The notes below the pieces were generated by a model that saw only the letters and a list, made by a program, of their open reading frames with translations, was not told the DNA's origin and did no database searches. Both the position numbers and the translations under genes were made by a program. 64,000 nucleotides of DNA from Tabrizicola sp. (GTDB lineage Bacteria; Pseudomonadota; Alphaproteobacteria; Rhodobacterales; Rhodobacteraceae), in the NCBI RefSeq assembly GCF_030373185.1, contig NZ_JAUCZH010000001.1, positions 496,001 to 560,000 on the forward strand, read 5' to 3'. Positions 1 to 13,275 of this stretch are shown here, piece after piece (within the stretch, counting starts at the first letter, position 1; each line of letters opens with the position of its first letter).

Positions 1-344
1 TGCCGGAGGGCGCAAACCTGCGCTATCTGGAAACGCTGCATCTGGCGGGAGGGCGGCCCTATGTGCTGGAGACCCGCTGGCTGAACCCTGCGATCCTGCC
101 CGATCCCGGCCCGGATTTCGCGCAGGAAAGTGCGAATGAATGGCTGGTGACCCATGTCAGCCTTGTGGCGGGTGATATCGCCTTTACCGCCGAAGCCGCG
201 AACCCGCGCGAGGCCGAGGTGCTGGGCGTGCCGCCCGGCACCGCGCTGCTGGTGGCTGAGCGTACCACTCAAGGCACAAGCGGGCCGGTCACGCTGGTCC
301 GGCTGGCCCATGCGCCGGGACACCGGGTGCAGATGACGTTCTGA
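1..344 (+). CDS. GntR/HutC-family transcriptional regulator, C-terminal part (UTRA domain)
   Basis: The reading frame is open from the window edge and ends in TGA at 342-344, so only the last ~114 residues are present; the DNA-binding N-terminus lies upstream. The visible part matches the effector-binding UTRA domain of HutC-like GntR regulators: a segment reading YVLETRWLNP, then ESANEWL, then GVPPGTALLVAERTT and a closing VTLVRLAHAPGHR. HutC proteins repress histidine-utilisation genes and respond to urocanate, but the UTRA fold serves many effectors, so the ligand is not settled. It ends 4 bp before the converging LysR gene. Family assignment is firm; equating it with HutC itself is an inference. 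Confidence 0.75.
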   Translation, partial: PEGANLRYLETLHLAGGRPYVLETRWLNPAILPDPGPDFAQESANEWLVTHVSLVAGDIAFTAEAANPREAEVLGVPPGTALLVAERTTQGTSGPVTLVRLAHAPGHRVQMTF

Positions 345-347
345 GGT

Positions 348-1193
348 CTAGCCGAACTGCCGCCCGACCAGTTGCGTCAGCTTGCGGTGCAGCCTTGTGT
401 GGCGGTTCCTCAGATGCATCGCGGTGTGGATCGGCTGCTGGATCACCGGTGCGTCGTTGATGATCCGAAAGCGCCCGGTATCCACCAGCATCCGCGCGGC
501 ATCCGGCATCACATAGCCCGACCCGCCCATCGCCAGCAAAAGTGCTGCAACGGCGGTGCTTTGCCCGACTGACAGCGGTGCCTCGGACAGTTCCGGCAGC
601 AGGATCCGGTGAGTTCGTTCGAAAGCGGGCGAGAAATGCGCGAAGATCATTGTGGCGGGGTTCACCTCGGCCCTTGTGCGGGCGTCTGACGACACAAGGC
701 GACAGGCGATTTCCCCGACAGAAGAAAAATGCAGGTCGGGGTGGGCCTTGGGCGTGAACAGAACCGCGAAATCGAGCGCCCCGGTCACAAGGTCGTTGCA
801 CATCTGGGTGGAATAGTCGGGTTCAATGTAGAACGCCGTCTGCGGCAAGGCCTGCCGGAAGGCCGCGACCAGCGGGCCAAGGGTCGCCGCTGCAAGGTCA
901 TTCTGGATGCCAAGCCGAAGCGTCAGCGCCGCATCGCCTGACGGCAGCACCGCACGCCGCGCCGCGATCCATTCCTGCCGCAGCATTCTCGCATGGGTCT
1001 CGAACCGCAGGCCTTCAGTCGTAAGGTCGGTCCCTGCGCGCGACCGGCGGAACAGCGTGGTGTCCAGCGCCTGCTCCAGCGTCCTTACCCGGGCCGACAC
1101 GGTGGATTGCGTCACCCCCAGCCGGTCAGCGGTGCGGTTGAAGCTGCGGGTGTCCACAAGGTCAAGGAAGGTGTCGATGAGTTCTATCTGCAT
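348..1193 (-). CDS. LysR-family transcriptional regulator
   Basis: 281 residues when started at the Met of MQIELIDTFLDL; the frame runs 14 codons further upstream, but LysR proteins normally begin a few residues before the winged helix. The N-terminal HTH is clear (SFNRTADRLGVTQSTVSARV at about 18-37) and is followed by the linker helix and a periplasmic-binding-like effector domain. It is transcribed away from the flavoprotein operon that begins at 1372, the usual layout for a LysR gene controlling its neighbour. The 178-bp gap holds a 6-bp inverted repeat with a 7-bp spacer, a plausible binding site. The effector is unknown. Confidence 0.88.
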   Translation of the reverse strand: MQIELIDTFLDLVDTRSFNRTADRLGVTQSTVSARVRTLEQALDTTLFRRSRAGTDLTTEGLRFETHARMLRQEWIAARRAVLPSGDAALTLRLGIQNDLAAATLGPLVAAFRQALPQTAFYIEPDYSTQMCNDLVTGALDFAVLFTPKAHPDLHFSSVGEIACRLVSSDARTRAEVNPATMIFAHFSPAFERTHRILLPELSEAPLSVGQSTAVAALLLAMGGSGYVMPDAARMLVDTGRFRIINDAPVIQQPIHTAMHLRNRHTRLHRKLTQLVGRQFG

Positions 1194-1240
1194 TCTCGGG
1201 CCATGCTTCCTGTGGCCGATCGCCGGGGGTTTCACACCCC

Positions 1241-1298: not shown

Positions 1299-1371
1299 AT
1301 AGCGCAGTGATTGCCGAATTGAAAGCACGTCACGGAAGTCCGATAGTGCGCGCAGAAATGGGGAGGCGGTC

Positions 1372-3813
1372 ATGGCGGAATTCGCAAGCGCGCGGGTGGT
1401 GATCATCGGGGGGGGCGCGGTCGGGGCCTCGGCGCTTTACCATCTGGCCAAGGCCGGCTGGACAGATTGCCTCCTTCTGGAAAAGAACGAGTTGACGGCG
1501 GGCAGCACATGGCACGCAGCGGGCAATGTGCCGACGTTTTCGTCCAGCTGGTCGATCATGAACATGCAGCGCTATTCGGCCGGCCTTTACAGGGGGCTGG
1601 GTGAGGCGGTCGATTACCCGATGAACTACCATGTCACCGGGTCGGTCCGACTTGGCCACAGCGCCGAGCGGCTTTTGGAGTTCAGGAAGGTCGCCGGCAT
1701 GGGCCGCTATCAGGGGATGGAGCTTGATATCCTGTCACCTGAAGAGATCCGCAGCCGCTATCCCTTTGTGGAAACGCATGACCTGACTGGCGCGCTTTAC
1801 GACCCCTATGACGGTGACATCGACCCCGCACAATTGACGCAGGCGCTTGCCAAGGGTGCCAGGACCATGGGCGCGCGGGTGGAGCGGTTCTGCCCGGTGA
1901 CTGCCGCGCGCTGGACCGGGACAGAGTGGATTCTGTCGACGCCGAAGGGCGAAGTGCGCGCCGAATATGTGGTGAACGCGGGCGGCTACTATGCCGCGCA
2001 AGTGGGCGCGATGTTCGGTCGCCGCGTGCCGATGATGGTGATGAGCCATCAATACATGCTGTTCGACACGATTCCCGAACTCGAAGCCTGGACGAGGGAG
2101 GTCGGCCACAAGCTGCCGCTGCTCCGCGATGTCGACAGCTCCTACTATCTGCGGCAGGAAAAGATGGGCTTCAACCTTGGGCCTTACGAGAGCAATTGCC
2201 GTGCGCATTGGGCGACGCCGGATGATCCGTTCCCCGAGGATTTCAGCTTCCAGCTTTATCCCGACGACCTTGACCGGCTGGAATGGCACATCAATGACGC
2301 CATGGCCCGGGTGCCTTTGTTGGCGCAGGCAAACCTGACCAAGGTGATCAACGGCCCGATCCCCTATACCCCCGACGGCAACCCTCTGATCGGGCCGATG
2401 CCCGGTGTGCCGAACGCGTTCGAGGCTTGCGTCTTCACCTTTGGCATCTGTCAGGCCGGGGGCGCGGGCAAGGTACTGGCGGAATGGATCACCGAGGGCG
2501 CCACCGAATGGGACATGTGGTCTTGCGACCCGCGCCGCTTTACCGGCTGGGAGGATCACGACTACTGCGTCAAGAAGGGGATGGAGGTCTACGGCCACGA
2601 ATACGCCATGCACTTCCCCCACCACGCCTGGCCCGAAGGCCGGATGAAGCGGCTGTCTGCGGTGCATGACCGGACAGCCGCCTTGGGCGCGCAGTTCGGG
2701 CCTTACAACGGCTATGAGCGCGCGCTTTGGTATGCGCGGCCGGGCGATGATACATCGGATGGGGCGCAACGCACTTGGGCGCGCAAAGGGCCGTGGTTTG
2801 GCGCCGTTGCCGATGAATGCGCTGCCGTCCGCGACGCCTGCGGCATCCTCGATTTGCCGGGCTTCAGCCGGTTCCGCCTGACCGGGGCAGGGGCGGCAGA
2901 CTGGCTGACGGCCCAGATCACCGGCAAGCTGCCCGCCGTCGGGCGGCTGGGCCTTGCCTATTTCGCCGATGACAAGGGCCGGATCGTCACCGAGATGTCG
3001 GTGGCCCGCCTCGCTGACGACGACATCCTTCTGATCACCGCCGCTACCGCGCAACTGCATGACCTGGGCTGGCTGGAGCGTCACCTTGCCCCCGGCCTGA
3101 GGCTTGCCGATGTCAGCGCCGACTGGTCCTGCCAGATCCTGACCGGACCGAAAGCGCGTGAGGTCCTGCAAGCGGCGGGGGCCGGGGCAGACCTGACGAA
3201 GGGCTGGCTGACCCACCAGGCCGCCCGCATCGCGGGGCGTGAGGTGATGCTGATGCGCGTCTCCTTCGCGGGCGAGCTTGGCTGGGAAATCCACTCGCGC
3301 CTTGCCGACACCCCGGCTGTCTGGGATGCGGTGATGGCGGCGGGCGCCCCCCTCGGCCTCAAGCCGTTCGGGATGTTCGCGCTCAACAGCTTGCGCATCG
3401 AAAAGGGCTACCGGGCGTGGAAGGGCGACCTTTCGACCGATTACACGGTGTTGCAAGGTGGGTTGGAGCGGTTCATCGACTGGGCCAAGCCTGATTTCCG
3501 GGGCAAGGCGGCTTTGGCTGCGGAAAAACAGGCCGGGGTCACTAAGCGGTTCTGCACCCTTGTGATCGAGGCCGCTGAACATGACCCGCCCTACATGGCG
3601 ACGATCTGGCATCAGGGGCAGGTGGTGGGCGAACTGACTTCGGGCTATTGGGGCCACCGCGTCGACGCCTGCATCGGGCTTGGCATGCTCAAGGCCGATC
3701 TGAACGTGGCGGGGCAGGAGGTCGAGGTTGAAATCTTCGGCCAGCGCTACCCGGCAACCGTCAAGGCCGATGCCCCGCTGTGGGATCCGAAGAACGAGCG
3801 GATCCGCGCATGA
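1372..3813 (+). CDS. FAD-dependent oxidoreductase with GcvT domains (dimethylglycine/sarcosine dehydrogenase-like), paralogue 1
   Basis: 813 residues, the usual length for the dimethylglycine dehydrogenase family. Order: N-terminal DAO fold with the dinucleotide motif GGGAVG (13-18) and STWHAAG (45-51), whose His48 lines up with the covalent-FAD histidine of the family; a central FAD-oxidoreductase region to about 430; then GCV_T and GCV_T_C domains that in relatives pass formaldehyde-level carbon to tetrahydrofolate. After WHAAG the chain reads NVPTFSSSW, unlike the LIGQLRGS of paralogue 2, so substrates may differ. A ribosome-binding site (GGGGAGG) precedes the ATG. First gene of an operon; its stop overlaps the next start (ATGA at 3810-3813). 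Oxidative N-demethylation is inferred from family; the substrate is unknown. Confidence 0.88.
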   Translation: MAEFASARVVIIGGGAVGASALYHLAKAGWTDCLLLEKNELTAGSTWHAAGNVPTFSSSWSIMNMQRYSAGLYRGLGEAVDYPMNYHVTGSVRLGHSAERLLEFRKVAGMGRYQGMELDILSPEEIRSRYPFVETHDLTGALYDPYDGDIDPAQLTQALAKGARTMGARVERFCPVTAARWTGTEWILSTPKGEVRAEYVVNAGGYYAAQVGAMFGRRVPMMVMSHQYMLFDTIPELEAWTREVGHKLPLLRDVDSSYYLRQEKMGFNLGPYESNCRAHWATPDDPFPEDFSFQLYPDDLDRLEWHINDAMARVPLLAQANLTKVINGPIPYTPDGNPLIGPMPGVPNAFEACVFTFGICQAGGAGKVLAEWITEGATEWDMWSCDPRRFTGWEDHDYCVKKGMEVYGHEYAMHFPHHAWPEGRMKRLSAVHDRTAALGAQFGPYNGYERALWYARPGDDTSDGAQRTWARKGPWFGAVADECAAVRDACGILDLPGFSRFRLTGAGAADWLTAQITGKLPAVGRLGLAYFADDKGRIVTEMSVARLADDDILLITAATAQLHDLGWLERHLAPGLRLADVSADWSCQILTGPKAREVLQAAGAGADLTKGWLTHQAARIAGREVMLMRVSFAGELGWEIHSRLADTPAVWDAVMAAGAPLGLKPFGMFALNSLRIEKGYRAWKGDLSTDYTVLQGGLERFIDWAKPDFRGKAALAAEKQAGVTKRFCTLVIEAAEHDPPYMATIWHQGQVVGELTSGYWGHRVDACIGLGMLKADLNVAGQEVEVEIFGQRYPATVKADAPLWDPKNERIRA

Positions 3814-4847
3814 CCGATCTGCCTGCCACCATGTCCGGCGTCCAGTTGATCGGCCATGGCGGACCGGAGATGCTGGTCTGGCGCGATGACATCCCCGTGC
3901 CGCGCCCCGGTCCGGGTGAGGTGCTGGTGCGGGTTCTGGCGGCGGGCGTGAACATGACCGACATCAACACCCGCAAGGGCTGGTATGGGGGCGAGGGGCG
4001 CGCGGCGGGCTGGTCCGGGCAGATGGGCTTTCCCCGGATTCAGGGATCAGATCTTTGCGGGCGGATCGTGGCGCTGGGGCAAGGGGTCGCTGGGCTGGCG
4101 CTGGGCGCGCGGGTGATCTGCCCGACCAACCAGCACGAACCGACGGCGGAAAACCCGATTGCCTTTGTGTCGATCGGATCGGAATTTGACGGGGCTTTCG
4201 CGCAATACTGTCTGGTCAAGACGCGGCATCTGCATGATGTCAGCGCCTCACCACTGACCGATATCGAGATTGGGGCGATGCCCTGCGCCTATGGCACGGC
4301 GCACAACCTGTTGACCCGGGCCGGCGTGGCGGTGGGCGAACGGGTGTTGATCACCGGCGCATCGGGTGGGGTGGGGTTGGCTGCGGTGCAACTGGCGCTG
4401 TTGCGCGGGGCCGAGGTGACGGGCCAGTGCAGCCTGTCAAAATCCGGCCCGCTTCGGGCGCTGAACGCCACGGTGCTGGCCCGTGACAGCCAACCGCGCG
4501 GCAACAGTTTCGACGTGGTGATCGACGTGGTTGGCGGCGATGGCTGGCAGGACAGGCTGGACGCGCTGCGTGCCGGGGGGCGCTATGCTACCTCGGGTGC
4601 GGTGGCCGGACCGATGGTCAAGGGTGATCTGCGCCGCATCTATCTGAATGACCTGACGATCTACGGCGCGACCCACCAGCCGCGTGAGGTTTTCGCCGGC
4701 CTTGTCACCATCATCAACACCGCCCGTATCCGGCCGGTGGTGTCCAAGACCTATCCCTTGCGCGATATCGCCCTTGCGCAGGCCGATCTGGCGGAAGGGC
4801 GCTACCCCGGCAAACTTGTCCTTGTTCCATCGGAGCCCGCACCATGA
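3810..4847 (+). CDS. MDR-superfamily NAD(P)-dependent alcohol dehydrogenase/quinone oxidoreductase
   Basis: 345 residues from the ATG that overlaps the upstream stop; an in-frame start 10 codons earlier lies inside the previous gene and is not needed. A GroES-like N-terminal domain (PGPGEVLVRVLAAGVNMTD) is followed by a Rossmann domain with GASGGVGLAAVQLA near 183-196. The cysteine cluster of the structural zinc site is not apparent, which favours the zinc-free quinone-oxidoreductase branch. It overlaps both neighbours by four bases, so it is very likely co-translated with the two flavoproteins and acts in the same pathway, perhaps reducing or oxidising a carbon-skeleton intermediate. Substrate unknown. 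Confidence 0.82.
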   Translation: MTDLPATMSGVQLIGHGGPEMLVWRDDIPVPRPGPGEVLVRVLAAGVNMTDINTRKGWYGGEGRAAGWSGQMGFPRIQGSDLCGRIVALGQGVAGLALGARVICPTNQHEPTAENPIAFVSIGSEFDGAFAQYCLVKTRHLHDVSASPLTDIEIGAMPCAYGTAHNLLTRAGVAVGERVLITGASGGVGLAAVQLALLRGAEVTGQCSLSKSGPLRALNATVLARDSQPRGNSFDVVIDVVGGDGWQDRLDALRAGGRYATSGAVAGPMVKGDLRRIYLNDLTIYGATHQPREVFAGLVTIINTARIRPVVSKTYPLRDIALAQADLAEGRYPGKLVLVPSEPAP

Positions 4848-7279
4848 CGATCCCCTCAAAAGCCCGCGCCGTCGTGATTGGCGGCGGCGTCTCGGGATGC
4901 TCGGTGGCCTATCATCTGGCCAAGGCGGGCTGGACGGATGTGGTGCTGCTGGAGCGTCGGAAGCTGACCTCTGGCACCACATGGCATGCGGCGGGGCTGA
5001 TCGGGCAATTGCGCGGATCGGCCAACATGACGCGATTGGCCAAGTATTCCGCCGATCTTTATCGCGGTCTGGAGGCTGAAACCGGCGTTGCCACCGGGAT
5101 GAAGCAGGTCGGTTCCATCTCGGTGGCGCTGACGGCCGAGCGGCATGAGGAACTCCTGCGTCAGGCCACCGTCGCGCGGATCTTCGACGTCGAGGTGCAT
5201 GAGATCAGCCCGGCCGAGGCCAAGGCGAAATACCCCCACCTCAACATTGGTGGTGTGGTCGGTGCCGTCGCCCTGCCGCTCGATGGCCAGTGCGACCCGG
5301 CCAACATCGCGATGGCGCTGGCCAAGGGCGCACGGATGCGGGGTGCGAAGATCTTCGAAGGGGCGCTGGTCACCAAGATCACCACGGCCAATGGCCGGGT
5401 CACCGGGGTGGACTTCGAGACCGCCGAAGGCCCCGGCCATATCGCCGCCGATGTGGTCGTCAACTGTGGCGGCATGTGGGGCCGCGACCTTGCCGCGCAG
5501 AACGGCGTCACGCTGCCCTTGCACGCCTGCGAACATTTCTACCTGGTCACCGAACCCGTCCAGGGCCTTGGTGACATGCCGGTCCTGCGGGTGCCGGACG
5601 AATGCGCCTATTACAAGACCGACGCGGGCAAGATGATGCTGGGCGCGTTCGAGCCTGTGGCCAAACCCTGGGGCATGAACGGCATCCGCAAGGATTTCGA
5701 GTTCGACACCCTGCCCGAAGACTGGGACCACTTCATGCCCATCCTCGAGATGGCCACCAACCGCATGCCCCTGTTTGAAACGGCGGGCATCCACACCTTT
5801 TTCAACGGCCCGGAATCCTTCACCCCGGATGATCGATATTACCTTGGCGAGGCGCCCGAGGTGCAGGGCTACTGGATCGCCGCCGGCTACAACTCCATCG
5901 GAATCGTGTCCTCGGGCGGCGCGGGGCAGGCGCTCGCGCACTGGATCACCGAAGGCGAGGCCCCCTTCGACCTTTGGGAGGTCGATATCCGCCGCGCCCA
6001 GCCCTTCCAGAAGAACCGCCGCTACCTGAAGGAACGGGTCACCGAAACCCTGGGCCTCCTTTACGCCGACCACTTCCCCTATCGCCAGATGGCCACCGCG
6101 CGTGGCGTCCGCCGCTCCCCGATCCACGAACACCTGAAAGCCCGTGGTGCAGTGTTCGGTGAGGTTGCAGGTTGGGAACGCGCCAACTGGTTCGCGAACC
6201 CCGGGCAAGACCCCGAGTACCGCTACTCGTGGAAGCGGCAGAACTGGTTTGACAACCAGCGCGCCGAACACATGGCCGTGCGGGAAAGCGCGGGCCTTTT
6301 CGACATGACCAGCTTCGGCAAGATCCGGGTGGAGGGTCGCGACGCCTGTGCCTTCCTCAACCGGATATCGTCAGCGCAGATGGATGTGGAACCCGGCCGC
6401 ATCGTCTATACGATGTTCCTGAATGAAAACGGCGGGATAGAGGCTGATCTTACAGTTTCCCGCCTCTCGGAAACCGCCTATCTGGCCGTTGTCCCCGGTG
6501 CCACCCTGCAACGCAACCTTGCCTGGATGCGCCAGCACGTCGGCGATGATTTCGCCGTCATAGCCGATGTGACCGCCGCCGAATCCGTCCTGTGCCTCAT
6601 GGGTCCGCAGGCGCGCGACATCCTGGCCAGGGTCTCACCCAACGACTTCAGCAATGCCGCCCATCCCTTTGGCCAGGCGCGTGAAATCGAGATTGGCATG
6701 GGCCTCGCCCGCGCCCACCGCGTCACTTACGTCGGTGAACTGGGGTGGGAGCTTTACGTCTCTGCCGACCAGACCGCCCATGTGTTCGAGGCGATCATGG
6801 AAGCCGCCCCGGACCTCAAGCTTTGTGGTCTGCACACGCTGGATAGTTGCCGCATCGAAAAGGCCTACCGCCACTGGGGCCATGACATCACCGATGAAGA
6901 CCATGTGCTGGAAGCCGGCCTTGGCTTCACGGTTTCCAGCAAGAAACCCGCCTTCATCGGCCGCGATTCCGTGCTGCGGAAGAAGGACGAAGGGGTCTCG
7001 CGCAAGATGCTCCAGTTCCGCCTGAAAGACCCCGAACCGCTTCTGTTCCACAACGAAGCCATTGTCCGCGATGGGAAAATCGTCGGCCCCGTCACCAGCG
7101 GCAACTACGGCCACTTCCTTGGCGGCGCGATCGGTCTGGGCTACGTCCCCGCCAAAGGCCAGACCGATGAGGACATCGTCGCCTCGCACTACGAGATCGA
7201 GGTAGCCGGCCAGCGGCATGAAGCCCTCGCCAGCCTCGCCCCGATGCATGACCCGAAATCCGAACGGGTCCGCGCATGA
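4844..7279 (+). CDS. FAD-dependent oxidoreductase with GcvT domains (dimethylglycine/sarcosine dehydrogenase-like), paralogue 2
   Basis: 811 residues with the same domain order as the gene at 1372: Rossmann motif GGGVSG (13-18), TTWHAAG with His48 as the probable covalent FAD attachment residue, central oxidoreductase region, then GCV_T (from about 440) and GCV_T_C. The segment after the flavin histidine, LIGQLRGSANMT, is the form I associate with dimethylglycine and sarcosine dehydrogenases, so this paralogue is the better candidate for a true DMG or sarcosine enzyme. In the family, methyl groups leave as 5,10-methylene-tetrahydrofolate and electrons pass to an electron-transfer flavoprotein. 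Its start and stop both overlap neighbours by four bases (ATGA). Confidence 0.9.
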   Translation: MTIPSKARAVVIGGGVSGCSVAYHLAKAGWTDVVLLERRKLTSGTTWHAAGLIGQLRGSANMTRLAKYSADLYRGLEAETGVATGMKQVGSISVALTAERHEELLRQATVARIFDVEVHEISPAEAKAKYPHLNIGGVVGAVALPLDGQCDPANIAMALAKGARMRGAKIFEGALVTKITTANGRVTGVDFETAEGPGHIAADVVVNCGGMWGRDLAAQNGVTLPLHACEHFYLVTEPVQGLGDMPVLRVPDECAYYKTDAGKMMLGAFEPVAKPWGMNGIRKDFEFDTLPEDWDHFMPILEMATNRMPLFETAGIHTFFNGPESFTPDDRYYLGEAPEVQGYWIAAGYNSIGIVSSGGAGQALAHWITEGEAPFDLWEVDIRRAQPFQKNRRYLKERVTETLGLLYADHFPYRQMATARGVRRSPIHEHLKARGAVFGEVAGWERANWFANPGQDPEYRYSWKRQNWFDNQRAEHMAVRESAGLFDMTSFGKIRVEGRDACAFLNRISSAQMDVEPGRIVYTMFLNENGGIEADLTVSRLSETAYLAVVPGATLQRNLAWMRQHVGDDFAVIADVTAAESVLCLMGPQARDILARVSPNDFSNAAHPFGQAREIEIGMGLARAHRVTYVGELGWELYVSADQTAHVFEAIMEAAPDLKLCGLHTLDSCRIEKAYRHWGHDITDEDHVLEAGLGFTVSSKKPAFIGRDSVLRKKDEGVSRKMLQFRLKDPEPLLFHNEAIVRDGKIVGPVTSGNYGHFLGGAIGLGYVPAKGQTDEDIVASHYEIEVAGQRHEALASLAPMHDPKSERVRA

Positions 7280-8106
7280 CAATGGCCGCCCGGCATCAGG
7301 CGTTCCACGACCTGCACCAGCAGGGCTGTTTCGTGATCCCCAACCCTTGGGATCGCGGCAGCGCACGCATGATGGCCGCGCTTGGCGCCAAGGCGCTGGC
7401 CACCTCCTCGGCGGCGCATGCCTTCACCATCGGCCGCCCCGATCTGGGCGGCGTCACGCGCGATGAGGCCTTGGCCCACGCGCAAGACCTGATCGCCGCC
7501 ACCCCTCTGCCGGTGTCGGGCGATTTCGAGAACGGCTTTGGCGACAGCCCCGATGACGTGGCCGAAACGGTGCGCCTGTCGGGTGAGGTGGGCCTGTCCG
7601 GCATCAGCGTCGAGGATACGCAGATGCAGCCCGGCAACCCCGCCTACGCCTTCGATCTGGCCGTGGACCGCATCCGCGCCGGGGCCGCCGCCGCCCGGGC
7701 GCTTGGCCGCCCCTTCATCTTTTGCGCCCGCGCAGATGGTGTCATGCATGGTAGCTACGATCTTGCCGAAGGCATCCGCCGCCTGCAGGCGTTTGAGGCT
7801 GCGGGGGCTGATCTGCTCTATCTTCCCGTCCCGCCGGGCAAGGCGGAACTCGCGCAAATCCTTGCCTCGGTGACCAAACCCGTCAACGCGCTGGCCGCCG
7901 GGCCGCTCAAATCGTCTACAGTCGCCGAACTGGCCACCATGGGCGTCCGCCGCATCTCGACCGGCAGCCAGATCGCGCGGGCCACCCATGCCATCATCCG
8001 TGACGCCGTGAACGCCATGCTGGGGGAGGGCAGCTTTGCCCCCCTGATGGCCACTGCCAGCGGTGACGAAATCGATGCACTCCTGCTCAAGGGATCAGAC
8101 CAATGA
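7276..8106 (+). CDS. Isocitrate lyase/phosphoenolpyruvate mutase family protein
   Basis: 276 residues, typical of the short PEP-mutase branch of the ICL superfamily. The chain carries CFVIPNPWDRGSARMM near the N-terminus, ALATSSAAHAFTIGRPD, the substrate-loop region LPVSGDFENGFGDSP and GISVEDTQ, all hallmarks of this family, which includes phosphonomutases, oxaloacetate hydrolases and 2-methylisocitrate lyases that cleave or rearrange C-C or C-P bonds at Mg-bound oxyacids. The catalytic KKCGH of true isocitrate lyase is absent. Start and stop overlap neighbours by four bases, fixing it within the demethylation operon. Which 2-oxo or hydroxy acid it handles cannot be told from sequence. Confidence 0.82.
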   Translation: MTMAARHQAFHDLHQQGCFVIPNPWDRGSARMMAALGAKALATSSAAHAFTIGRPDLGGVTRDEALAHAQDLIAATPLPVSGDFENGFGDSPDDVAETVRLSGEVGLSGISVEDTQMQPGNPAYAFDLAVDRIRAGAAAARALGRPFIFCARADGVMHGSYDLAEGIRRLQAFEAAGADLLYLPVPPGKAELAQILASVTKPVNALAAGPLKSSTVAELATMGVRRISTGSQIARATHAIIRDAVNAMLGEGSFAPLMATASGDEIDALLLKGSDQ

Positions 8107-9668
8107 CCGACGTGACCGCCGATCTGGGCGATATCTGCGAACCCGCCCGCGCCCGCCGTTCCGGTGGCCGTACCGCCCGCGTGGCGATGCGCGCCGCCCC
8201 CCTTACGGATGAGATGCGCCCCGTCCGCCCCGGCCTGCCCGGCGGCCAGTACAAGCCCCTGACCGAGGCCGGGGTGCAGCAGATCCACGCCGCCGCGCTG
8301 GACGCGCTGGAACAGATCGGCCTTTCCCAGGCCCCGCCCTCGGGCGTGAAGCTCCTGACAGATGCGGGCGCGATCCTTGGCGATGATGGCCGCATCCGTT
8401 TCCCCCGCGCGCTGGTCGAGGACATGCTGAACATCGCCGCGCGCGACATCACCCTTCACGCCCGCGACCCAAGGCATGACCTGCACCTCAGCGGCTCGAA
8501 CGTCCACTACGGCACTGCGGGCGCTGCGGTCCATATCGTGGACCCGATCACCAACGAATACCGCGAATCCACCGCGCAGGATCTTTATGACGCGGCACGC
8601 CTGGTCGATAACCTCGACAACATCCACTTCTACCAGCGCACGATGGTCTGCCGCGATGTGGTCGACAACAAGGAGATGGACCTCAACACCCTTTATGGCA
8701 GCCTTTCCGGCACCGTAAAGCACGTCGGCACCAGCTTCTCCGACCCATCGCACGTCGCCGATTGCTTCGAGATGCTGCACATGGTCGCCGGGGGTGAGGA
8801 ACACTGGCTGGAGCGCCCCTTCGTGTCGAACTCCAACTGCTTCGTCGTGCCGCCGATGAAATTCGCGGAAGAAAGCTGCATCACGATGGAGGATTGCATC
8901 CGGCGCGGCATGCCGATGCTTCTGCTCTCGGCCGGGCAGGCCGGGGCCACCGCACCAGCCCCCATCGCCCTGACCATCGTGCAGGCTGTCGCCGAATGTC
9001 TGGCGGGGGTGGTCTATGTCAACGCGATCAAACCCGGCGCGCCTGCCATCTTCGGCACCTGGCCCTTCGTCTCGGACCTGCGCACCGGGGCAATGTCCGG
9101 TGGATCAGCCGAACAGGCGTTGCTGACCGCAGGTTGCGCCCAGATGCACCGCTTCTACGGCCTGCCCGGCGGGGCGGCTTCGGGCATCAGTGACTCAAAG
9201 CTCCCCGACATGCAGGCCGGGTGGGAGCAGGGCATCACCAACGCCCTTGCCGGCCTTGCGGGCCTGAACATGTGCTATGAGGCGGTTGGGATGCACGCCT
9301 CCCTCCTCGGCTTCTGCCTTGAATCGCTGGTGCTTGGCGATGACTTGCTGGGCCAGACAATGCGCCTTGTCCGTGGCATCGACGTAACCCCCGATTCGAC
9401 ATCCATTCAGGCGATGAAAGAGGTCTGCCTTGGCGGGCCGGGGCATTACCTTGGCTCTGATCAGACGCTGAAACTGATGCAGACCGAATACATCTATCCG
9501 GTGGTCGGCAACCGCATGTCGCCCAAGGAATGGATGGAGGCAGGCAAGCCCCTGTTGCTTGATGGGGCGATTGCCCGCAAGAATACAATCCTCGCCAAGG
9601 CCGGATGCCGCGTCGATCCCGAGATTGACGCCGCCATCCGTGCCCGCTTCAACATCTACTTCAAGTGA
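8103..9668 (+). CDS. MttB-family (trimethylamine methyltransferase-like) protein, no pyrrolysine
   Basis: 521 residues, close to the family's length, read through without an internal amber codon, so it belongs to the non-pyrrolysine branch. Recognisable parts are LTEAGVQQIHAAALDALEQIG at the N-terminus, the DP-rich HIVDPITNEYRES region, PMKFAEESC and the glycine-rich FYGLPGGAASGISDSK followed by MQAGWEQG. In characterised non-pyrrolysine relatives the protein moves a methyl group from a quaternary amine such as glycine betaine to a corrinoid protein. No corrinoid-binding protein or reductive activator gene lies in this window. Overlaps the upstream gene by four bases. Methyl transfer is inferred; substrate unknown. 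Confidence 0.85.
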   Translation: MTDVTADLGDICEPARARRSGGRTARVAMRAAPLTDEMRPVRPGLPGGQYKPLTEAGVQQIHAAALDALEQIGLSQAPPSGVKLLTDAGAILGDDGRIRFPRALVEDMLNIAARDITLHARDPRHDLHLSGSNVHYGTAGAAVHIVDPITNEYRESTAQDLYDAARLVDNLDNIHFYQRTMVCRDVVDNKEMDLNTLYGSLSGTVKHVGTSFSDPSHVADCFEMLHMVAGGEEHWLERPFVSNSNCFVVPPMKFAEESCITMEDCIRRGMPMLLLSAGQAGATAPAPIALTIVQAVAECLAGVVYVNAIKPGAPAIFGTWPFVSDLRTGAMSGGSAEQALLTAGCAQMHRFYGLPGGAASGISDSKLPDMQAGWEQGITNALAGLAGLNMCYEAVGMHASLLGFCLESLVLGDDLLGQTMRLVRGIDVTPDSTSIQAMKEVCLGGPGHYLGSDQTLKLMQTEYIYPVVGNRMSPKEWMEAGKPLLLDGAIARKNTILAKAGCRVDPEIDAAIRARFNIYFK

Positions 9669-9675
9669 GGTCGCC

Positions 9676-11106
9676 ATGATCCCCGCCAACATGCTGAAAT
9701 TCTACATCAATGGCCAATGGGTCGATCCGATTTCCGCCAACCGGATGGGGGTTGAAAACCCCGCGACCGAGGAAATCGTCTGCGAAGTCGCCATGGGTAA
9801 CACCGAAGACGCCGACCGCGCGATTCTCGCCGCCCGCGCTGCGTTTGACGGCTGGACCTATCGCCCGGTGGCCGAACGCATTGCCATCGTGAAGCGCATC
9901 CTTGAGGTCTACAACGACCGCTACGAAGACTTCGCCCAAGTCATGTCCACCGAGATGGGGGCGCCCATCACCTGGGCGCGTGAGGCGCAGGCCTGGGCCG
10001 GTCAGGTCCATATCGAAGCCACGATCAAGGCCGCCGAGGAGATGGTCTGGGAATACAACCGCGGCACCACCCGGATCATCTATGAAGGGATCGGCGTCTG
10101 CTCGCTGATCACGCCGTGGAACTGGCCGATGAACCAGATCGCCTGCAAGGTCGCTCCCGCGCTGATCGCGGGCTGCACGATGGTCTTGAAGCCTTCGGAA
10201 ATCGCACCGCTCTCTGGCACCCTCTTCGCGCAGGTCTGCCATGATGCGGGCGTGCCGCCGGGCGTCTTCAACCTTGTGCATGGGGCAGGGCCAGAGGTCG
10301 GTGCGCGGATGTCCTCGCACCCCGAGGTTGACATGGTGTCCTTCACCGGCTCCACACGGGCCGGCACCGCGATTGCCGCCGCCGCAGCCCCCACGGTCAA
10401 GCGCGTGGCGCAGGAACTGGGCGGCAAGTCGCCCAACATCATCCTGCCGGGTGCCAATATCGCCGAGGCCGTCGCCGCGGGAGTGACCGCTGTCATGTCC
10501 AACACCGGCCAGTCCTGCGACGCGCCGACCCGGATGCTGGTGCCGCGTGCCAAGCAGGCCGAAGCGCTGCAAGTTGCGAAAGAGGCCGCCGAGGCGATCA
10601 AGATCGGTGATCCGCGCGATGAGGCAACGGTGATGGGCCCCCTGATCTCGAAGCTGCAATTCGACAAGGTCCAGCGCCTGATTCAAGCCGGAATCGACGA
10701 AGGCGCCACCCTTGTGACCGGTGGCCTTGGCCGTCCGGCTGACCTTAACCGAGGCTGGTTCACCCGTCCGACCGTCTTCGGCGATGTGGTCAACTCGATG
10801 ACCATTTCGAAGGAAGAAATCTTCGGCCCGGTCCTTGCGATCCAGCCCTATGACAGCATCGAAGACGCCATCCAGCAGGCCAACGATACTGTCTACGGCC
10901 TTGCCGCCTACATCGCCGGCCCGGTCGAAGACGCCAAACCCGTTGCCCGCAAATTGCGCGCCGGGACGGTGAACCTCAACTACCCCGACTGGGACACCTC
11001 CGCGCCCTTCGGCGGCTACAAGCAGTCCGGCAACGGCCGCGAATACGCCGATTGGGGCATCCATGACTTCTGCGAAGTCAAAGGAATCGTCGGCTACGGC
11101 GAATAA
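9676..11106 (+). CDS. NAD(P)-dependent aldehyde dehydrogenase
   Basis: 476 residues from the ATG of MIPANMLKFYINGQW; the frame opens 39 codons earlier inside the MttB-like gene, but that extension has no family match, and the start used lies 7 bp after the upstream stop. The ALDH hallmarks are present: SLITPWNWP, the general-base region QELGGKSPNII, the nucleophilic cysteine in NTGQSCDAP, and EEIFGPVLAIQPY. The C-terminal APFGGYKQSGNGREYADWG is typical of the non-acylating family. It would oxidise an aldehyde to the acid with NAD(P). Position between the MttB-like gene and the hydroxyacid-dehydrogenase-like gene suggests it treats the demethylated skeleton. Confidence 0.9.
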   Translation: MIPANMLKFYINGQWVDPISANRMGVENPATEEIVCEVAMGNTEDADRAILAARAAFDGWTYRPVAERIAIVKRILEVYNDRYEDFAQVMSTEMGAPITWAREAQAWAGQVHIEATIKAAEEMVWEYNRGTTRIIYEGIGVCSLITPWNWPMNQIACKVAPALIAGCTMVLKPSEIAPLSGTLFAQVCHDAGVPPGVFNLVHGAGPEVGARMSSHPEVDMVSFTGSTRAGTAIAAAAAPTVKRVAQELGGKSPNIILPGANIAEAVAAGVTAVMSNTGQSCDAPTRMLVPRAKQAEALQVAKEAAEAIKIGDPRDEATVMGPLISKLQFDKVQRLIQAGIDEGATLVTGGLGRPADLNRGWFTRPTVFGDVVNSMTISKEEIFGPVLAIQPYDSIEDAIQQANDTVYGLAAYIAGPVEDAKPVARKLRAGTVNLNYPDWDTSAPFGGYKQSGNGREYADWGIHDFCEVKGIVGYGE

Positions 11107-11124
11107 CCGACACGACAACCAACA

Positions 11125-11158
11125 GGGGCGGGCCAGAACCCGCCCCATTCCAATGGGG
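11125..11158 (+). promoter_or_regulatory. Two mutually exclusive hairpins in front of a start codon
   Basis: GGGGCGGG (11125-11132) pairs perfectly with CCCGCCCC (11139-11146) around a six-base loop. The last four C residues of that arm also begin a second stem, CCCCATT (11143-11149) with AATGGGG (11152-11158), whose loop is only two bases. The GGGG that would close the second stem is also the only Shine-Dalgarno-like sequence before the ATGs at 11161/11164. The first hairpin could free, and the second hide, that site. A plain terminator is less likely because no T-run follows. Confidence 0.4.
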
Positions 11159-11160
11159 AC

Positions 11161-12063
11161 ATGATGCACTACGGATATATCGGCCTTGGCAACCTTGGCG
11201 CGGCCTGCGCGGGTTGCCTTCTGAAAGCGGGTTTCAAGGTCACGGTCTATGACCTGAACGCGGCCCTTGCCGCCCCCTTGGTGGCAGCTGGGGCCACCCT
11301 GGCCACCAGCGCCGAAGGGGTCGCCGCCTCGGCCGATCACGTCATCACCTGCCTGCCATCGCCGGCAGTCTCGGAAAAGGTGCTGCGCCACATCCTGCCC
11401 CACATGAAAAAGGGCGCAAGCTGGGTCGAGATGTCCACGCTTGGCCGGGATGAGGTGCTGCGCCTGGCTGCCGTCGCTGCCGAAGGCGGCGTGCGGATGA
11501 TGGAACTGCCCGTCACCGGCGGCGTCCATCTGGCGCATCAGGGCAAGATCACCATGCTGGCCGGCGGCGACGCCGACCTGTTCGAACTGCACCATGGTGC
11601 CATGCAGGCGATGGGCGACAAGATCTTCCACATGGGGCCTTTGGGATCTTCATCGATCATCAAGGTCATCACCAACATGCTGGCCTTCATCCACCTGAAA
11701 GCCACGTCCGAGGCGTTGATGTTGGCCAAGCGCGGCGGGCTTGATCTGGGGCAGGCATGGCACGCCATCGCGGCTTCGTCCGGCAACAGCTTCGTGCATG
11801 AAACCGAAGGGGCGCTGATCCTGAACGGGTCATATGACATTGCCTTCAACATCGACCTAGCGCTGAAGGACCTCGGCTTTGCGCTAGGCTTCGGCAAGGA
11901 ATTCGGAGTGCCGCTCGACCTCGCCTCGATGACCAACCAGACCTACGTCGCCGCCAAGGCCGCCTATGGCGGCGAGGCGCAGTCACCGATGATTGCCAAA
12001 CTGCTGGAAGACCTGCTTGGCACCGACTTGCGCGCCGAAGGCTTCCCGTCCCGGCTTGAGTGA
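11161..12063 (+). CDS. NAD(P)-dependent oxidoreductase, 3-hydroxyisobutyrate dehydrogenase family
   Basis: 300 residues. The N-terminal Rossmann motif is GYIGLGNLGAACAG; the substrate-binding signature region reads ELPVTGGVHLAHQGKITMLAGG; the catalytic lysine lies in IIKVITNML. These define beta-hydroxyacid dehydrogenases, which interconvert short hydroxyacids and semialdehydes. Two ATGs are adjacent; the second (11164) has the better spacing from GGGG at 11155-11158. Pairing with the aldehyde dehydrogenase 54 bp upstream suggests an alcohol-to-aldehyde-to-acid sequence in the same pathway, but the substrate is not known. Confidence 0.87.
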   Translation: MMHYGYIGLGNLGAACAGCLLKAGFKVTVYDLNAALAAPLVAAGATLATSAEGVAASADHVITCLPSPAVSEKVLRHILPHMKKGASWVEMSTLGRDEVLRLAAVAAEGGVRMMELPVTGGVHLAHQGKITMLAGGDADLFELHHGAMQAMGDKIFHMGPLGSSSIIKVITNMLAFIHLKATSEALMLAKRGGLDLGQAWHAIAASSGNSFVHETEGALILNGSYDIAFNIDLALKDLGFALGFGKEFGVPLDLASMTNQTYVAAKAAYGGEAQSPMIAKLLEDLLGTDLRAEGFPSRLE

Positions 12064-12081: not shown

Positions 12082-12166
12082 GACAGTGTGAATGCCCATG
12101 CTCAAGCCCTTGATTTCGCAATGGTGCTCACACTGTCCCCCTGTGGGACATCGCAGACAGGTGTCC
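12082..12166 (+). promoter_or_regulatory. Candidate leader RNA or operator: three overlapping hairpins
   Basis: GACAGTGTGA (12082-12091) is perfectly complementary to TCACACTGTC (12128-12137); the 36-base interior holds a second imperfect stem, TGCCCATGC against GCAATGGTGC. The 3' end of that arm is reused in TGTCCC (12134-12139) pairing with GGGACA (12145-12150), and GGACA (12146-12150) is reused again with TGTCC (12162-12166), ending two bases before the ATG at 12169. The three stems cannot all form at once. This resembles an attenuator or riboswitch layout, but I do not recognise a known class, and the 10-bp arms could instead be a protein-binding dyad. Confidence 0.4.
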
Positions 12167-12168
12167 GC

Positions 12169-13275
12169 ATGACCCCCGAATTCCAGGCACACATCGCCCG
12201 CCTTCTTCACCACCGCAAGGCGGGTCTCGGGCAGGGTGATCCCGTGGTCCCCCCGATCATCGCCTCGGCCACCTTCCACCTGCCATCCGTCCAGACGGGT
12301 GGCCACATCTACGGCCGCAACGGCAACCCCAGCTGGGACGCCGTCGAAGCCCAGCTGGCAATCCTTGAAGACGCCGAGACGGTCTCCTTTCCCTCCGGCA
12401 TGGCCGCCATCGCCGCTGCCTTGTTTGCCACGCTGAAGGCGGGGGATCGTCTGATCATCCCCTCGGACGGCTACTACGTCACGCGCGTCCTGTCTGACGG
12501 TTTCCTCAAACCCCTCGGCATCGACGTGCAGGCGATTCCAACGACCAGCTACGCCACCGCTGATTTCACCGGCGCGGCGGTGGTCTATCTGGAAACCCCC
12601 TCGAACCCCGGCCTTGATGTGGTCGACATCGCCGCCGTCGCAGCCCGGGCGCACAAGGCCGGGGCAAAGGTCATCGCCGACAACACGACGATGACACCCC
12701 TCCTTCAGCGCCCGCTGGACCTTGGCTGCGATCTTGTGGTGGCCGCTGACACCAAGGCCCCCGCCGGTCATTCCGACGTGCTTTTCGGCCATGTAGCAGG
12801 GCGCGACGGCGCCCTTGTATCCCGCGTGCGCGACTGGCGGCGGATGGCCGGGGCCATTCCCGGCCCGTTCGAGGCCTTCCTTGTCCATCGAGGCATTGAA
12901 ACGCTGGAGGTCCGCCTTGACCGGATGTGTTCCAGCGCTGGATTGATCGCTGGGCGGCTTGCCGCGCATCCGGGCGTGACTGGCCTGCGTTACCCGGGGC
13001 TGGCGGACGATCCATCGCATTGGGCGGTGGGGGGGCAGATGGCCAACGGCGGTTTCCTTATCGGGTTCGAGCTTGCCGATGCCGGGGTGGCGGAAAGCTT
13101 CCTGTCGCGCTGCCCGCTGATCGAGCAGACCACCAGCTTTGGCGGCACACATACGGCCGGCGAACGCCGGGCGCGCTGGGGGGATGCGGTGCCGGAGGGG
13201 TTCATCCGGCTGTCTGTTGGTGTGGAACCGGCAGAGCCGCTTTGGGCGGCAATCGCAGCGGCGCTGCCGGGCTGA
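12169..13275 (+). CDS. Cys/Met metabolism PLP-dependent enzyme (cystathionine gamma-synthase-like)
   Basis: 368 residues from ATG at 12169; a GTG-initiated frame reaches back to 12088 but would run through the hairpin region and adds nothing that looks conserved. Family marks: GHIYGRNGNPSWDAVEAQLAILE, the PLP-stacking region VSFPSGMAAI, the aspartate region KVIADNTTMTPLLQRPLDLG, and the internal-aldimine lysine in DTKAPAGHSDVLFG. It is somewhat short for the family (about 380-400). Enzymes of this fold join or break C-S bonds in cysteine/methionine synthesis. It sits after the demethylation operon behind a structured gap and may be separately regulated. Exact reaction (synthase, lyase or sulfhydrylase) not determined. 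Confidence 0.8.
   Translation: MTPEFQAHIARLLHHRKAGLGQGDPVVPPIIASATFHLPSVQTGGHIYGRNGNPSWDAVEAQLAILEDAETVSFPSGMAAIAAALFATLKAGDRLIIPSDGYYVTRVLSDGFLKPLGIDVQAIPTTSYATADFTGAAVVYLETPSNPGLDVVDIAAVAARAHKAGAKVIADNTTMTPLLQRPLDLGCDLVVAADTKAPAGHSDVLFGHVAGRDGALVSRVRDWRRMAGAIPGPFEAFLVHRGIETLEVRLDRMCSSAGLIAGRLAAHPGVTGLRYPGLADDPSHWAVGGQMANGGFLIGFELADAGVAESFLSRCPLIEQTTSFGGTHTAGERRARWGDAVPEGFIRLSVGVEPAEPLWAAIAAALPG

Follow-up and report, generated by a model that had tools for sequence, protein, structure and literature searches.

A 64,000-nucleotide stretch of the genome of Tabrizicola sp. (GCF_030373185.1, contig NZ_JAUCZH010000001.1, positions 496,001 to 560,000; referred to as the window and numbered from its first letter) contains an operon that encodes an MttB-family protein and two flavoproteins, DMG1 and DMG2, related to dimethylglycine dehydrogenase (DMGDH) and sarcosine dehydrogenase (SARDH). 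These three genes, together with a divergent gene for a LysR-family regulator, form a conserved core across Tabrizicola, other Rhodobacterales and Rhizobiales, and genes for an MDR-family reductase, a PEP-mutase-like protein, an aldehyde dehydrogenase and others are optional additions to it. We consider it rather probable, from sequence and gene context, that the operon demethylates a trimethylammonium carboxylate (a betaine) with one enzyme per methyl group, glycine betaine being the most likely substrate and a near relative a possible one, and the conserved unit is probably under LysR control. The system is a variant of known B12-plus-flavin betaine demethylation, in which the MttB clade is an unassigned and unstudied one and the chemistry is known.

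In the proposed scheme, the MttB-family protein would transfer a methyl group of the quaternary amine to an MtgC-like corrinoid protein encoded elsewhere, from which an MtgD-like pterin-binding protein would hand it to tetrahydrofolate. DMG1 would oxidise the dimethyl product in the fashion of DMGDH, giving the monomethyl amine and methylene-tetrahydrofolate, and DMG2 would take off the final methyl likewise, leaving glycine if the substrate is glycine betaine. Electrons would pass to an electron-transfer flavoprotein (ETF), whose genes have the operon's dyad in front of them and may be linked to the operon in this way.

Organisation of the operon

The operon and its upstream region consist of the following features:

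348–1235, minus strand: LysR-family regulator, divergent (Pfam HTH_1 and LysR_substrate)
1280–1298, no strand: candidate LysR-type operator TGATCG-N7-CGATCA (T-N11-A dyad), sole copy in the window
1315–1325, plus strand: second conserved element, CGAATTGAAAG, position counted by hand
1372–3813, plus strand: DMG1, DMGDH-like FAD/folate N-demethylase (Pfam; 565 bits to human DMGDH)
3810–4847, plus strand: MDR-family reductase, accessory (Pfam)
4844–7279, plus strand: DMG2, DMGDH/SARDH-like FAD/folate N-demethylase (Pfam; 441 bits to human DMGDH)
7276–8106, plus strand: PEP-mutase/ICL-superfamily protein without the CGH motif, accessory (Pfam; 4iqd alignment)
8103–9668, plus strand: MttB-superfamily protein without pyrrolysine, putative quaternary-amine:corrinoid methyltransferase (PF06253)
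9676–11106, plus strand: aldehyde dehydrogenase (Pfam, NCBIfam)
11161–12063, plus strand: beta-hydroxyacid dehydrogenase family, HIBADH/GarR-like (Pfam, NCBIfam)
12088–13275, plus strand: cystathionine gamma-lyase-type pyridoxal phosphate (PLP) enzyme (NF005758), after a 24 bp gap

An earlier, sequence-only reading of this stretch had described much of this layout correctly: the four ATGA overlaps lie at 3810, 4844, 7276 and 8103, the aldehyde dehydrogenase gene follows mttB by 7 bp (stop ending at 9668, ATG at 9676) and the hydroxyacid dehydrogenase gene follows by 54 bp (stop ending at 11106, ATG at 11161). Its protein types agree with Pfam, which assigns DAO, FAO_M, GCV_T and GCV_T_C to both flavoproteins, and MDR, PEP_mutase, MTTB, Aldedh and NAD_binding_2/11 to the others. 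It overlooked the divergent LysR gene and the eighth operon gene, of the cystathionine gamma-lyase type, which is likely to be the final gene of the operon within the genus. The start of lysR, judged by eye, is likely to be the internal methionine of MQIELIDTF.

A conserved core with optional additions

Conservation was assessed in two sets. The genus set comprises longer stretches from 18 of 31 congeners plus the window (19 loci, 16 of which cover the entire operon), and the wider set comprises the best 80 of at least 582 relatives, with full context in 57; at least three loci of the wider set are genomes already in the genus set. Gene presence was counted by tblastn with identity thresholds (at least 60% for DMG1) because simple gene calling overlooked PEP-mutase-like and MDR genes at several loci, and the hydroxyacid dehydrogenase was counted on either strand. 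Fractions of 16 and of 57 below refer to full-context loci.

An MttB match of at least 90% identity is found in 32/32 genus genomes, in G016 and G025 only in pieces, and the protein stays 90–95% identical across the genus. The gene order is also found in other families and, given the genus-wide MttB and this recurring order, the operon exceeds chance. LysR, DMG1, DMG2, the hydroxyacid dehydrogenase and the gamma-lyase are present in all 16 genus loci. In the wider set a divergent LysR gene occurs in 46/57, DMG1 and DMG2 in 44/57 each and the hydroxyacid dehydrogenase in 37/57, and four Sinorhizobium loci (L104, L111, L114 and L116) hold, among the genes tested, LysR, DMG1, DMG2 and MttB only. 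DMG1 and DMG2 adjoin MttB in 44 of the 57 loci, and the identity of MttB to the window protein is correlated with that of DMG2 (Spearman 0.84, n=78) and of DMG1 (0.59, n=75). Stepwise N-demethylation with methyl carbons passing to tetrahydrofolate, as the sequence-only reading had proposed, is thus upheld as a prediction, since the DMGDH-type pair plus MttB is what is conserved. In S. meliloti Ak57 (L168, 7418-9852) the match to DMG2 is split into three pieces, and the gene table lists no gene there; DMG2 is probably broken at this locus.

The other genes vary. With the window included, the PEP-mutase-like protein and the aldehyde dehydrogenase are each present in 10/16 genus loci and the MDR reductase in 7/16, and the exact gene set of the window occurs in 4/16. 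In the wider set the aldehyde dehydrogenase is found in 22/57, the gamma-lyase in 14/57, the PEP-mutase-like protein in 8/57, the MDR reductase in 6/57, an aminotransferase in 2/57 and a thiamine pyrophosphate (TPP) enzyme in 1/57. A search for the same set across Rhodobacterales, suggested earlier, therefore recovers the flavoprotein/MttB core but finds the MDR, PEP-mutase-like and aldehyde dehydrogenase genes variable; their gain and loss within the genus leaves no fixed carbon-skeleton pathway.

The accessory proteins themselves point the same way in one case. When the PEP-mutase-like protein is aligned to 4iqd, no Cys falls opposite the Cys-Gly-His (KKCGH) loop, a motif that we take to be the active-site motif of 2-methylisocitrate lyase and isocitrate lyase (ICL) enzymes, so the usual lyase chemistry is unsupported as a route to C–C cleavage. 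The solved structures nearest to the protein are 4lsb and 2ze3, it scores 65 bits against a prpB cut-off of 354, and a TIGR02317 search of the host genome for a true prpB matched only the window gene. The best NCBIfam match of the aldehyde dehydrogenase is BADH, at 407 bits, under the equivalog cut-off of 668.6, and the gamma-lyase-type protein matches NF005758 at 503 bits, above the cut-off of 440.

These data bear on the idea, put forward in the sequence-only reading, of a dedicated linear pathway in which the MDR, ICL/PEP-mutase, aldehyde dehydrogenase and hydroxyacid dehydrogenase proteins are obligatory after demethylation and process the skeleton through an aldehyde and a C–C cleavage. 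The tight packing of the window genes and the retention of the whole set in four genus loci would suit such a pathway, but three of its enzymes come and go within one genus while MttB hardly changes, and the PEP-mutase-like protein is without the lyase motif. Skeleton processing of this kind is not borne out, and we regard an obligatory linear pathway as decidedly unlikely.

The MttB-family protein and its partners

The MttB-family protein matches PF06253 at 364 bits (cut-off 25), its reading frame has no in-frame TAG, and an Ile lies opposite the pyrrolysine (X) of MttB in the 7xcl alignment; by these features it is classed as a non-pyrrolysine member of the MttB superfamily. The known quaternary-amine substrates of such proteins carry an acidic group, according to excerpts of PMC12155760. 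In a 50-row tree the host's other four MttB proteins (L133-L136) are grouped on a branch of 4.19 (100/100), and the operon MttB and its operon-linked relatives fall outside that group, with a long-branch warning there; nor does the operon MttB group with MtgB-like proteins in this tree, in which the long branches are flagged. Matches to 2qne, the sequence family of glycine betaine methyltransferase 9yce, reach 424 bits for L133, 386 bits for L134 and 196 bits for the operon MttB.

Candidate partners are encoded outside the operon. One is an MtgC-like corrinoid protein that scores 200 bits with the MtgC model, under the cut-off of 370; its gene adjoins those for DUF1638 and for an MtgE/Bhmt-type protein (617 bits against a cut-off of 338). 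A methyl-tetrahydrofolate:corrinoid methyltransferase domain (350 bits, cut-off 259) is encoded elsewhere in the genome. In Ruegeria pomeroyi, as excerpted from PMC12478193, glycine betaine demethylation requires MtgC and MtgD, whose genes lie apart, and separately encoded partners of this kind would explain an operon without a corrinoid gene. The same excerpts report up to seven pfam06253 proteins in the genomes of marine bacteria with MtgC and MtgD, most of them without an assigned substrate, and the Discussion suggests that the extra paralogues serve diverse or other methylated compounds.

More distant MttB relatives adjoin flavin N-demethylases as well, either of the DMGDH type (L040-L045, L048, L050, L051, L167, L169, L171-L173 and L175) or of the OYE/TMADH type (L046, L047 and L174, with L049 by eye); L052 is an exception to this pairing. 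At L136 (G000:C10:580-4169), an MttB-family gene of the host overlaps an OYE/TMADH-like gene near an oligopeptide-type ABC transporter (by eye), and this locus is possibly a second betaine demethylation unit. On a plasmid of Leisingera caerulea (93,801-99,942; L174), OYE-like, Rieske and MttB genes are consecutive beside a mandelate-racemase-family gene, a gene content by which it is a putative further mixed betaine cluster.

The flavoproteins DMG1 and DMG2

Both flavoproteins contain DAO, FAO_M, GCV_T and GCV_T_C, all above cut-off, and in the alignment to human DMGDH both keep the WHAAG histidine, which we take to be the residue of covalent FAD attachment. DMG1 additionally keeps the HQY/YYLRQE motifs of the human enzyme. 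Human DMGDH carries covalent His-FAD, yields methylene-tetrahydrofolate and uses ETF as acceptor (PMC5082570, in excerpt). A Glu in the DMG1 folate domain that had seemed unusual was dropped as a feature, human DMGDH carrying Glu there too in the alignment.

The likely order of action follows from the company that each keeps. DMG1-type proteins (35-39% identical) pair alone with more distant MttB proteins, and five plasmids (L165, L170, L177, L179 and L183) carry DMG2 orthologues (74-77%) with no DMG1 in the stretches read, which suggests that MttB acts first, DMG1 second and DMG2 last. DMG2 is found with glycine betaine transporter genes and hydroxyproline-breakdown-like genes in S. americanum and A. 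tumefaciens 1D1609; such clusters, in which only two methyls would need removal, fit a rule of one enzyme per methyl. Elsewhere in the host (L142; G000:C1 about 798,000-806,400), a DMG2-like gene (46%) lies near a malate-CoA ligase gene (699 bits, cut-off 604) and one for a BhcA-like aminotransferase (578 of 650 bits), a neighbourhood that suggests a C2/C1 assimilation cluster.

A LysR-type dyad shared by the operon and etfBA

For the dyad scan 99 loci were tried, of which 66 had the DMG1 start plus 180 bp upstream, three of these regions being genome duplicates. TnATC-N9-GATnA is present upstream of DMG1 in 61/66 regions (58/63 distinct ones), and mononucleotide shuffles (200 rounds) gave a mean of 0.1/66 regions with a dyad, a test that is post hoc in that the dyad was first noticed in the consensus of 40 of the 66 regions. 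The more distant loci provide a fairer test, and 21/25 of them have the dyad. It is found in 3/3 of L168, L176 and L181 and in 0/3 of the LysR-less units L166, L180 and L182; scans of L036 (cut at its end) and L037 (without a recognised LysR) showed none. The k-mer GAATTGAAAG occurs in 39/66 of the upstream regions, duplicates included, and the corresponding element at 1315–1325 is possibly an activator or promoter element.

The host genome has four strict copies of TGATCG-N7-CGATCA, at the operon, at etfB and at two other places. The etfB copy (G000:C2:6103-6121, L193) begins 164 bases before the start of EtfB, the identities of EtfB and EtfA being confirmed by Pfam, and the gene that precedes etfB in the host, just before the dyad, encodes a cobalamin adenosyltransferase. 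Dyad half-sites precede etfB in 29/30 genus genomes read, host included and G004 and G012 outside the 30, and the spacer between them varies freely. By eye, the DNA ahead of the dyad differs in L215, L216 and L228, and the dyad therefore seems tied to etfB rather than to its neighbour.

Across the 32 genus genomes there are 1 to 5 sites genome-wide, where about 0.1 site per genome is expected by chance (a hand estimate from base composition). Ten genomes have exactly two: by position, these are the operon and etfB in eight, etfB and another place in G013, and etfB and a short contig in G025. The reversed pattern gave 0 in all 32 genomes, a weak control as this pattern contains CTAG, which is rare in bacteria. 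EtfBA is also present in some clusters that hold DMG1/DMG2 orthologues. We infer that the operon and etfBA may be under the same LysR protein, which would bind both dyads.

Substrate and competing explanations

Several neighbourhoods link the unit to carnitine, choline or betaine transport and thereby point to glycine betaine. Neorhizobium NCHU2750 and Rhizobium CC-CFT758 each have LysR (44%), DMG1 (75% in the former; two pieces, 79 and 66%, in the latter), DMG2 (76%), the dyad and a Rieske protein, without MttB in the stretch read, and both units adjoin carnitine 3-dehydrogenase and related genes. Carnitine breakdown by the carnitine 3-dehydrogenase route yields glycine betaine. The two Rieske proteins are 78 and 81% identical to the one within the MttB operon L118, and in the wider set a GbcA-like Rieske adjoins MttB in 4/57, a homocysteine S-methyltransferase in 4/57 and a choline-dehydrogenase-like GMC protein in 8/57. 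At L127 DMG1-MttB has a choline sulfatase (849 bits against a cut-off of 433) as neighbour, in R. conchae a more distant pair lies beside carnitinyl-CoA dehydratase, and at L048 and in Mesorhizobium distant pairs lie beside glycine betaine/choline-type ABC transporter genes, those of L048 scoring under cut-offs. That glycine betaine itself is the substrate is, on balance, roughly an even call.

The Rieske-containing units also bear on whether MttB might use another methyl donor or perform no methyl transfer, the function of the unit being demethylation of a dimethyl compound by DMG1 and DMG2. LysR-DMG1-DMG2 units in which no MttB appears within the stretch read, as well as DMG1/DMG2 units without LysR or MttB that accompany EtfBA, and FolD and/or PurU, would suit this alternative. 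However, both MttB-less LysR units carry a GbcA-related Rieske, which is expected if both proteins perform the first demethylation, and MtgC/MtgD-like partner proteins are present in the host; we consider the alternative unlikely.

Other observations weigh against betaine demethylation by this unit, or against glycine betaine in particular. MttB lacks neighbouring DMG1 and DMG2 in 13/57 loci, which would also suit a separate role for MttB, the operator is absent from five of the 66 upstream regions (L062, L086, L100, L112 and L130), DMG1 of L176 matches only in two pieces, and DMG2 orthologues also occur in the clusters with hydroxyproline-type genes. In one of the 30 genomes, G002, the stretch read ahead of etfB is without a dyad, and the dyad at etf may be the target of a different regulator. 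The host already holds two proteins far nearer to glycine betaine methyltransferase (L133 and L134) and three soxA genes, which would give glycine betaine more than one route. The Rieske proteins reach 256-278 bits (256-267 in the three from rhizobia that were scored), far under the GbcA cut-off of 670, so their substrate may differ, and the GMC protein scores 554 bits, under its cut-off of 605. No transporter was seen recurring beside the operon (by eye, uncounted), a plain glycine betaine route has no step for the hydroxyacid dehydrogenase or the gamma-lyase, and a relative in R. pomeroyi with a class III aminotransferase and a TPP enzyme would suit another betaine.

A rival explanation is three-step demethylation with glycine betaine replaced by another trimethylated betaine (for example of the omega-amino-acid, hydroxylated or homoserine type), in which the hydroxyacid dehydrogenase, aldehyde dehydrogenase, gamma-lyase, aminotransferase and TPP-enzyme neighbours would process the freed amino acid. 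The operon MttB stands apart from the host's MtgB-like pair, R. pomeroyi and Ruegeria THAF33 have a related set (LysR-MttB-class III aminotransferase-DMG-DMG-TPP enzyme), DMG1/DMG2 orthologues of R. leguminosarum occur with an AptA-type omega-aminotransferase (715 bits, cut-off 500), and the hydroxyacid dehydrogenase is frequent in the wider set. Yet the wider set has no constant accessory gene, some Sinorhizobium loci have none, the carnitine- and choline-linked neighbourhoods favour glycine betaine, and the R. pomeroyi DMG proteins are only 33-41% identical. Another betaine is hence a real but clearly less probable substrate. The R. pomeroyi locus (L167) is on the megaplasmid at 339,974-350,270 and runs LysR-MttB-class III aminotransferase-two DMGDH-like-TPP enzyme, the last being nearest to sulfoacetaldehyde acetyltransferase, below cut-off; the literature searches turned up no substrate assigned to this unit. 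Homarine and homoserine betaine (from betaine lipids) were also entertained, and no open-licence PMC literature was found that ties either to the cluster.

Hercynine (trimethyl-histidine), feeding the adjacent histidine-utilisation genes, would be another trimethylated substrate, given that hutH and hutI are located immediately before the window and that hut neighbours are found in 22/68 loci tested. But all 22 loci are close kin (MttB at least 80%), in which purF on the opposite side likewise recurs, the hut genes and lysR are transcribed convergently, and 0 of the Rhizobiales loci tested have hut there; we rejected hercynine on this ground as local synteny, and consider it very unlikely indeed. 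The hut genes (hutH and hutI by family, hutF/hutC by eye) occupy G000:C1 about 491,500-496,350 (L146) and window positions 1-345, abutting lysR.

Relation to known systems and implications

No published pathway with the exact gene set was found in open-licence PMC, in line with the sequence-only reading, although the principle of the first step has been published for MtgBCD (excerpts of PMC12478193). The R. pomeroyi system resembles the one described here in having an MttB-family protein, corrinoid and pterin partners encoded elsewhere and tetrahydrofolate as acceptor, in aerobic alphaproteobacteria, and the locus of MtgC-like, MtgE-like and DUF1638 genes is present in the Tabrizicola host too. 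In contrast, the operon MttB shares one operon with both later demethylases, has its own adjacent LysR and is set apart from the host's other MttB proteins, with two nearer MtgB homologues elsewhere in the host.

DMG1 and DMG2 resemble dimethylglycine and sarcosine dehydrogenases in their full FAD, FAO_M and folate set, the WHAAG histidine, the His/Tyr motif and, probably, a link to ETF, whereas the YYLRQE of human DMGDH is YYKTDA in DMG2. A GbcA-like Rieske, related to the GbcAB glycine betaine monooxygenase, replaces or accompanies MttB in related rhizobial loci, whereas the window operon has no Rieske. MtpB, MtcB, MtyB and MthB of Eubacterium limosum are likewise non-pyrrolysine MttB homologues, each acting on one quaternary amine, but come from an anaerobic acetogen with cognate MtqC/MthC, and the excerpts of PMC8604678 and PMC12155760 mention no oxidative demethylase partner.

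More tentatively, and with less confidence than in betaine demethylation as such, the operon and etfBA could make up a small regulon of LysR for an unassigned betaine. In it, either a new B12-dependent MttB subfamily or an oxygen-dependent Rieske enzyme would serve as first demethylase, the two flavin demethylases would be fixed, and the substrate of the MttB subfamily would be new to MttB proteins. A conserved unit in which the putative quaternary-amine methyltransferase is encoded together with the two later demethylases, and whose dyad recurs at ETF, is a directly testable case, and the operon could serve as a marker of betaine turnover among freshwater and root-associated bacteria. If true, the interchange of a B12 enzyme and a Rieske oxygenase would illustrate how a single pathway is maintained with or without oxygen or cobalamin.

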